A stretch of DNA of 64,000 nucleotides from Acidimicrobiaceae bacterium (GTDB lineage: Bacteria; Actinomycetota; Acidimicrobiia; Acidimicrobiales; Ilumatobacteraceae). Below the pieces are notes generated by a model, which saw nothing but the letters and a program-made list of their open reading frames with translations, was not told where the DNA came from and made no database searches. Below are positions 782 through 63,305 of this stretch, in pieces (within the stretch, counting starts at the first letter, position 1; each line of letters opens with the position of its first letter). Both the position numbers and the translations under genes were made by a program. The stretch is from NCBI GenBank assembly GCA_947447175.1, contig CANFIM010000001.1, positions 21,964 through 85,963 of the forward strand, in the 5' to 3' direction.

Positions 782-787
782 GTGTGA

Positions 788-797
788 AGCCTACGCT
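788..797. promoter_or_regulatory. Candidate bidirectional -10 element (MOSC gene / rnhB)
   Basis: AGCCTACGCT: plus TACGCT (N7 to ATG 805), minus TAGGCT (N6 to ATG 781), sharing the TA. Confidence 0.6.
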
Positions 798-804
798 TCA
801 TGCA

Positions 805-18935: not shown

Positions 18936-19645
18936 CGGAACAAATCTTCCGACGGCGGGCGAACTATTTCGTCCATTGATGAATCGCGGAACCATGAAGG
19001 GTCTGCGCCACGCACCACTGCAACAGGGACACCTGTTGATTTACCCATGACCAGTTCTGCTGCTGATGCAAGTTCGTCAGCAACGCACACTTCGGTGACG
19101 TTCATGACGCGTCCGAGGGCATCTTCGGTGCCGCGAAGGTCAACAACTGCGGCGATGCCGGCAACGCCGATAGCAACATCGGTGAGGCCCTTGCGCCATG
19201 GACGACCGAAGGTGTCACTGATGATCACGCCCACATTGACACCCAGTTTTGCTTTCACAATGTCTCGAATGCGACGGGCAGACCTATCGCTATCAAGCGG
19301 TAACAATGCTGCATAACCGCGTTCAACGTTTGAAAGGTCAATTCCACTGTTGGCACACACGAAGCCATGCTTTGTTTCGGTGATGATGAGGTCGCCGCGG
19401 CGACGTACAACACGTGCCGCCTCTTCTTCTACAAGCACTTTGTGAGACAACGGATCGTCGGCATCAATAAGTACGAGTCGCCCTTCTGCCTTTGAAACAA
19501 TTTTTTGCGTGACAACAAGGACGTCATTGTCACGCAATGGACCGTTGGGTTCGCCTGCACAGGCTTCAACAATGATGTCGCCGAGTTGCTGGCCAGGCAC
19601 AATCTCGCCAATTCCTTCAACGCTCCATGCCATTAAACGGGCCAT
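18932..19645 (-). CDS. cofE: Coenzyme F420-0:L-glutamate ligase
   Basis: VLVVTQKIVSKAEGR, ISDTFGRPWRKGLTDVAIGVAG; start placed at ATG 19645. Confidence 0.9.
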   Translation of the reverse strand: MARLMAWSVEGIGEIVPGQQLGDIIVEACAGEPNGPLRDNDVLVVTQKIVSKAEGRLVLIDADDPLSHKVLVEEEAARVVRRRGDLIITETKHGFVCANSGIDLSNVERGYAALLPLDSDRSARRIRDIVKAKLGVNVGVIISDTFGRPWRKGLTDVAIGVAGIAAVVDLRGTEDALGRVMNVTEVCVADELASAAELVMGKSTGVPVAVVRGADPSWFRDSSMDEIVRPPSEDLFR

Positions 19646-20604
19646 GATTGTGCTCCTTGTTTTGGTGTTGCGCGTACGGCAACCTCTGCCAATGTTTTTG
19701 CGACTCCTGGTTTCGACATGATGGTGTCGGTAGCAATGCAACGAACACCTTCGCGCTCAACAGCATCAATGAGATGTTCGTCTTGAACATCTATGACAAG
19801 CGTGGAACATATTGGCGCGTACATGCGGGCTACGCCTACAACAGTGGGCTCGTGACCTAGTTCTACCAACATTCGGTCTGCCGGGCCTTTGAGTGCGGCC
19901 CCAGCGACAATGGGGGAGATTGCCACCGTGTCTTCACGGCGTGCGCGCAATGCGTTTTCCACTCCGGGAATCGAACGAATCGGTCCAATGGAAACGATGG
20001 GATTAGATGGTGCAATCACAATGGTGTCGGCATTAGTGAGTAATGAATCATCGATGAATCGCGCAGTTGATGCGCCAACGAACTCAACCCCCGTCACCGG
20101 CACTGAGTGTTGGAGTCGGACGAAGTATTCCTGAAATGGAACCGAGCCGTTTTCCAGATGCACAACTGTGCGTACTGAATCGTTAGACATAGGAACAATG
20201 CGTACATCAAGTGAGAATGCACGACGTATTTCATCGGTGACTTCGGCAAGTGTTGCGCCCTCGCCTAATCGTGCGGTGCGATAGAAGTGAGTTGCAAGAT
20301 CTTGATCACCCAAGTTGAACCATCGAGGAGCTGCAACAGATCCTTGTGGTCGCACCGATTCGAATCGAGCGAGAGATTCCATGGCGCGCCATGTTTCCTC
20401 ACGCAACCCCCACCCACGTTCTGGGTCGATGGAGTGGGACAACGTGTATGTGACGGTGTCGATATCGGGAGAAATGGACAGGCCGTGCATCTCGGTGTCG
20501 TCACCAGTGTTGACCACCGCTGTGACATCGGACGGAGGAACCGCCTGCAATAGTCCGGAAAGGAAGCGAGCAGCCCCTACGCCGCCTGCAATCACAACAA
20601 TCAT
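19633..20604 (-). CDS. cofD: 2-phospho-L-lactate transferase
   Basis: VIAGGVGAARFLSGLLQAV, VNTGDDTEMHGLSISPDIDTVTYTL, APSNPIVSIGPI. Confidence 0.93.
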   Translation of the reverse strand: MIVVIAGGVGAARFLSGLLQAVPPSDVTAVVNTGDDTEMHGLSISPDIDTVTYTLSHSIDPERGWGLREETWRAMESLARFESVRPQGSVAAPRWFNLGDQDLATHFYRTARLGEGATLAEVTDEIRRAFSLDVRIVPMSNDSVRTVVHLENGSVPFQEYFVRLQHSVPVTGVEFVGASTARFIDDSLLTNADTIVIAPSNPIVSIGPIRSIPGVENALRARREDTVAISPIVAGAALKGPADRMLVELGHEPTVVGVARMYAPICSTLVIDVQDEHLIDAVEREGVRCIATDTIMSKPGVAKTLAEVAVRATPKQGAQSWPV

Positions 20605-48424: not shown

Positions 48425-48430
48425 GGGTTC

Positions 48431-48440
48431 ACAGTACCCT
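48431..48440. promoter_or_regulatory. Candidate bidirectional -10 element (menB / FMN reductase)
   Basis: ACAGTACCCT: plus TACCCT (N9 to ATG 48450), minus TACTGT (N6 to GTG 48424), sharing the TA. Confidence 0.6.
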
Positions 48441-48449
48441 CAAACTCTT

Positions 48450-63272: not shown

Positions 63273-63305
63273 GGGGCATGAAGGGTATCGGTAGCGTGTG
63301 TGGTG

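Follow-up and report, generated by a model that had tools for sequence, protein, structure and literature searches.

How are two divergent genes transcribed when only 23 bp lie between their start codons? The question arises from the window analyzed here (the whole stretch of DNA, 64 kb), which was taken from a metagenome-assembled genome of 1.6 Mb (contig C1) belonging to a clade of freshwater Ilumatobacteraceae, and in which a gene for a MOSC-domain protein and rnhB stand head to head (Table 1). Read directly, the CAT at 779–781 is the ATG of the MOSC gene on the minus strand and the ATG at 805–807 is that of rnhB on the plus strand, leaving positions 782–804, with the sequence GTGTGAAGCCTACGCTTCATGCA, between them. 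This gap contains the 10-mer AGCCTACGCT, composed of A (788), GCC, TA (792–793), CGC, and T (797). The two hexamers TACGCT and TAGGCT overlap within it on opposite strands and have the TA at 792–793 in common, which forms positions -12 and -11 of each. Overlapping opposite-strand -10 elements with key bases in common are a trait of bidirectional promoters with a shared -10, and AGCCTACGCT carries them. On direct reading, the gap length, the motif coordinates, the hexamer spacings of 7 and 6 nt, and the common TA were all as claimed in the original prediction.

Table 1 Features of the MOSC/rnhB locus, of the second site in the window, and of the independent short gaps carrying the symmetric motif.
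Feature	Position in the window	Strand	Details
MOSC-domain protein gene	1–781	minus	ATG 781; PF03473, E=1.9e-16; runs ~14 bp past the window edge
rnhB, ribonuclease HII	805–1428	plus	ATG 805; Pfam RNase_HII PF01351, E=1.1e-36
Symmetric -10 element AGCCTACGCT (pattern ANNNTANNNT)	788–797	none	Both hexamers; invariant in 19 genomes
-10 hexamer TACGCT for rnhB	792–797	plus	7 nt from rnhB ATG
-10 hexamer TAGGCT for the MOSC gene	788–793	minus	6 nt from MOSC ATG
Predicted MOSC transcription start	781	minus	A of ATG (leaderless); from -10 geometry
Predicted rnhB transcription start	804 or 805	plus	From -10 geometry (804) or A of ATG (805)
Shared-TA element ACAGTACCCT	48431–48440	none	Spacings 6 and 9; gap of 25 bp
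Enoyl-CoA hydratase-family gene	GTG 48424	minus	Left of the 25-bp gap
FMN reductase gene	ATG 48450	plus	Right of the 25-bp gap
Motif gap 1: MOSC/rnhB			AGCCTACGCT; 23 bp
Motif gap 2: inositol-monophosphatase-family gene and neighbour			ACACTACCGT; 23 bp
Motif gap 3: short-chain dehydrogenase pair			AAAGTACCCT; 23 bp
Motif gap 4: cysteinyl-type tRNA synthetase gene and valyl-tRNA synthetase-like gene (the latter named by sequence reading)			AGCCTACGAT; 26 bp

The distance between each hexamer and its start codon (6 nt for the MOSC gene, 7 nt for rnhB) is that of leaderless TANNNT genes, whose hexamer ends ~6–9 nt before the start. It leaves no room for a leader with a Shine-Dalgarno sequence, and nothing resembling such a sequence was found for either gene within the 23-bp gap, in keeping with the claim that conventional 5′ UTRs have no space here.

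This arrangement very probably represents a bidirectional promoter of the housekeeping-sigma type, in which a single 10-bp symmetric -10 element would serve two mRNAs predicted to be leaderless or nearly so. RNA polymerase would bind AGCCTACGCT either way round, using TACGCT for rnhB and TAGGCT for the MOSC gene. In each orientation, the RNA would start at the start codon or at most one base from it, making the mRNAs leaderless or nearly leaderless, and both would be translated without a Shine-Dalgarno sequence; a -35 element would not be needed in this clade. Because two complexes would overlap, the element could presumably hold only one polymerase complex at a time. The geometry, its exact conservation, the leaderless class of the genus with no -35 signal, and the surplus of the motif in short divergent gaps are direct observations; from them we infer the start sites, the two-way activity, the mutual exclusion, and the leaderless translation at MOSC/rnhB. 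That both mRNAs are leaderless, as first proposed, would be correct to within one base: the 7-nt spacing of rnhB also allows a predicted start at 804, which would mean a 1-nt leader, and not strictly at 805. The predicted start sites would accordingly lie 23 bp (781/804) or 24 bp (781/805) apart by -10 geometry, and separations of 7–25 bp define the bidirectional class.

The promoter class to which these hexamers would belong was characterized in a genus sample of 2.04 Mb (17 contigs, genes called with a simple purpose-made caller) containing 702 divergent starts. TANNNT preceded 272 of them at 6, 7, 8, or 9 nt (121, 75, 40, and 36 starts, respectively), compared with ~3 per position farther upstream. 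When the 236 starts with 6-nt spacing were aligned on the hexamer, C was favoured at -13 and -1 and G or T at -6, while no position of the -35 region rose above 0.06 bits. TTGACA-like hexamers with spacers of 15–19 showed no clear excess over control positions in the leaderless class. Such starts, which are common in this genus, belong to the leaderless TANNNT class already known from publications on Actinobacteria and Deinococcus-Thermus. Both hexamers of the MOSC/rnhB gap are usual members of it, TACGCT being the third most common leaderless -10 hexamer of the genus and TAGGCT among the eight commonest.

The original prediction had placed upstream promoter parts inside the opposing genes, but no such parts are required, as the leaderless class shows no -35 signal and the best TTGACA-like match for the MOSC gene or rnhB (spacers 14–20) reached only 3/6. 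A -35 hexamer inside the opposing genes was rejected on the same grounds. It is because nothing upstream of the hexamer is needed that two genes can stand 23 bp apart. The base directly after TANNNT was A in 26 of 503 starts (5%, versus a background of 23%), a strong avoidance. As the closer arrangement of the E. coli type, with an 18-bp distance between start sites, would require an A at this place, that -10 overlap looks disfavoured in this clade.

Conservation was then followed across relatives. A gene for ribonuclease HII was present in 57 of the 61 relatives searched, and in 20 same-genus loci it diverges from its MOSC partner across a gap of exactly 23 bp that holds the 10-mer. The ATG at 805 was kept in all 20 of these loci, and the ATG of the MOSC gene was conserved too. 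These data bear on the start of rnhB, which could in principle be an in-frame GTG upstream (784 or 775) that overlaps the promoter, in which case rnhB would not be leaderless from the element. Indeed, no stop interrupts the frame back to 775, and GTG 784 was the pick of a gene caller based on codon scores. In relatives, however, TCG, GAG, GCG, and other codons stand in place of this GTG, and the caller shifts to 805 once a start-codon bonus is added. Both GTG 775 and GTG 784 were rejected, as neither is conserved while ATG 805 is, and we consider an upstream start next to impossible.

Changes per column were counted on a tree for the 19 of the 20 loci (freshwater Ilumatobacteraceae) with complete sequence. 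No substitution was found in the 10 core columns, compared to a mean of 2.9 changes in the 13 flanking gap columns and of 4.3 at 67 fourfold-degenerate sites of both genes. Among 750 coding columns, the longest invariant run was 6, against the 10 unchanged core columns. With columns treated as independent, the chance of zero core changes is P ~3e-14 from the zero fraction of the fourfold sites, and 9e-7, under the same treatment, within the gap itself. The zero-change columns coincide exactly with the 10 bases of the two hexamers, which supports the promoter reading. As a control on ordinary promoters, orthologous leaderless starts of the sampled genomes were compared pairwise (n=234): TANNNT at 6–9 nt was retained in 95% of the comparisons and the rest of the upstream region turned over. 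The interior NNN was 84% conserved per site. Since the interior of ordinary leaderless -10s is thus also conserved, the pattern is suggestive of a dual constraint on the 10-mer and does not prove it.

Outside the 20 loci, the element could be traced a little further. More diverged L020 retains the 10-mer with spacings of 7/7, and L021, also more diverged, retains it with spacings of 6/6 and GTG starts on both sides, the GTG of the MOSC gene being a probable assignment. Five still more distant genus members (L022–L026) have neither the divergent MOSC gene nor the element. A search of 397 genomes from the order for this motif at precisely this spacing matched only the source genome and one other, which is about the chance level; as sampled, this form is therefore confined to the genus.

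A palindrome-like, strongly conserved 10-mer might instead be the operator of a transcription factor acting on both genes, with the promoters located elsewhere, inside the opposing genes. Inverted arms of 5–6 bp (TGAAGC/GCTTCA) surround the center in the source genome and many relatives, some of which carry GAAGC-CTAC-GCTTC. Yet the outer arm bases vary, as in GCGAGCCTACGCTCA of L017 and TAGAGCCTACGCTCA of L019, conservation ends at the hexamer edges, and the spacing to both start codons fits the leaderless class. No regulon is visible either, because AGCCTACGCT occurs at the MOSC/rnhB locus and at no other place in the 2.04 Mb. The operator was rejected, as neither conserved symmetric arms nor, in the 2.04 Mb, a recurrence of the site at other genes was found, and we regard it as very improbable.

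It can also be asked whether the -10 element works in one direction only, the second hexamer being a coincidence and the corresponding gene being fired, with a leader, from inside its neighbour. TANNNT is a loose motif, and bases beside ordinary leaderless -10s are conserved as well. Against this, all four letters that define the two hexamers are conserved in the 20 loci, as are the distances on either side, nothing like a Shine-Dalgarno sequence precedes either gene within the 23-bp gap, and the symmetric motif is present in three other independent short gaps. This one-sided use seems improbable, if slightly less so than the operator, and the shared element remains our preferred reading.

The recurrence of the motif was assessed by clustering divergent pairs by homology of both proteins, which left only 12 independent gaps of 20–28 bp for this gene-aware comparison. 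Four of these carry ANNNTANNNT at 6–9 nt from both starts (Table 1), whereas 5000 shuffles of the 12 gaps averaged 0.05 motif gaps and never exceeded 2. None of the 15 other letter patterns with equal symmetric shape was found in the 12. The reading as a shared promoter thus survived the proposed comparison with shuffled short divergent gaps (4/12 versus 0.05). Part of this excess is to be expected, because leaderless genes this close are forced into one TA. In the short-chain dehydrogenase pair, AAAGTACCCT is identical in three genomes (G007, G010, and G030), which have the exact 23-bp gap and varying flanks; this pair, unrelated to MOSC/rnhB, reads as an independent repeat of the MOSC/rnhB signature. 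Together, the match between zero-change columns and hexamer bases and the motif excess over shuffles support the shared promoter, with transcription itself being what we infer from them.

Gap lengths point to the same geometry. In the 38 independent pairs with a leaderless -10 for each gene, the minimum gap was 23 bp, reached by three pairs, as the geometry predicts, because at 22–25 bp the hexamers must have TA in common. Gaps of exactly 23 bp were found at four independent loci, versus ~1–2 per neighbouring length, a pile-up that is suggestive only. Counted gene-blind in 32 genomes, CAT-N6-ANNNTANNNT-N7-ATG gave 36 matches, ~20 of which are the MOSC/rnhB locus; a reversed-pattern control gave a similar number, chance matches dominate, and no genus-wide enrichment was seen in this count apart from the MOSC/rnhB family.

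Slightly longer divergent gaps were also noted. At 63273–63305 of the window, a 33-bp gap has two TANNNT motifs, one at 9 nt from the start on the minus strand and one at 8 nt from that on the plus strand; G001 and G031 have this pair with gaps of 35 and 36 bp. A divergent D-Ala-D-Ala ligase/Mur-ligase-family pair (L042:12158–12190) has a 33-bp gap with two back-to-back -10s; the central ~20 bases are the same in G001 and G003 between variable flanks.

The same geometry had been said to recur within the window at 48425–48449. The motif ACAGTACCCT is real, with its 6- and 9-nt spacings, but it is not conserved: the shared motif was absent from the hydratase/FMN reductase locus in all five other genus genomes examined. 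G001, G012, and G014 have an extra open frame between the two genes, which lie 85 bp apart in G003 and are arranged differently in G031 as well. In four relatives, the FMN reductase gene retains a TANNNT (TATCGT or TAGCGT) at 9 nt from its start codon. In the lineage of the source genome, a deletion, apparently with loss of an intervening gene, may have joined the two units, in which case the hydratase gene would now borrow the TA of the FMN reductase -10. The element appears private to the source genome and, as a single case, is not evidence of selection; the short-chain dehydrogenase pair is the better second example.

For the protein encoded at 19633–20604 of the window, the reading frame of the orthologues shows one internal TAA in the matched stretch in many relatives (G009, G013, G025, G004, G005, G019, G026, G029, and G002); a local effect of the frame or of the alignment might account for it.

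Whether these gaps reflect a general rule is, in our judgment, evenly balanced. Under such a rule, leaderless divergent pairs of this clade could be packed no closer than a geometric floor of ~23 bp, where two promoters become one 10-bp element kept by selection for both genes and the orientation of the polymerase becomes an unavoidable choice; the state could arise by deletion, as suggested at 48425–48449. If true, these would rank with the shortest complete intergenic regions in which a common promoter drives two protein-coding genes. Two published ideas, symmetric -10 promoters and leaderless genes, would be joined, and a stretch of 10 bp could make up the entire regulatory region for two proteins. 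Dual use of a promoter would leave a clean evolutionary signature in the conservation pattern, readable without RNA data, and any leaderless-rich clade can be scanned for it. As no -35 or leader is expected to complicate matters, such gaps would also make a simple system for studying orientation competition of the polymerase. They carry a warning, too: in gaps of this kind, start codons can be misplaced by gene callers.

Symmetric overlapping -10 elements are, as the original prediction stated, a published concept: in bidirectional promoters, a single symmetric -10 region serves both orientations (Warman et al. 2026, PMC12825309; Middlemiss et al. 2023, PMC10268837), and citing papers credit a symmetric shared -10 to Warman et al. 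2021 (doi 10.1038/s41564-021-00898-9) as well. According to their authors, such promoters occur in all prokaryotes, and their preferred distances between start sites are most commonly 18 bp, with 10 and 23 bp also common (PMC12825309, PMC10268837). In tests of E. coli bidirectional promoters, activity did not suffice for competition except where one direction was activated (PMC12825309), so the MOSC gene and rnhB should not be assumed to be strongly coupled. Leaderless TANNNT ("TA-led") genes are reported in Actinobacteria and Deinococcus-Thermus, where a -35 consensus is absent from M. tuberculosis leaderless genes and from most D. radiodurans genes with a -10 motif, and the -10 motif alone suffices for promoter activity in D. 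radiodurans (PMC3160421; PMC12340547; PMC3898074). Closely juxtaposed divergent promoters are described for M. tuberculosis, for example prpD/Rv1129c, where both mRNAs are leaderless (PMC3898074).

A shared -10 with a 23-bp separation of start sites, leaderless TANNNT genes, and close divergent promoters have therefore each been published separately. In the open-access literature searched, we found no conserved case of two leaderless protein-coding genes that share a -10 and whose dual use of it is backed by evolutionary evidence. Like prpD/Rv1129c, MOSC and rnhB are divergent genes with close promoters and two leaderless mRNAs, the latter predicted here, whereas the accessible description of prpD/Rv1129c does not state a common -10 element or a gap of ~23 bp. 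Like the leaderless TANNNT genes, both have a TANNNT a few bp before the start and no -35 signal, but those genes, as described in the parts available, have one hexamer each, while MOSC and rnhB have hexamer bases in common. Finally, like the published bidirectional promoters, the element would be one -10 used in two orientations, and its predicted 23-bp start site distance is one of the preferred ones. It differs from the E. coli and Salmonella cases, which mostly have the 18-bp overlap, in this predicted distance, and also in that its mRNAs are protein-coding and predicted to be leaderless, its intergenic region measures 23 bp in all, and no -35 is detectable.
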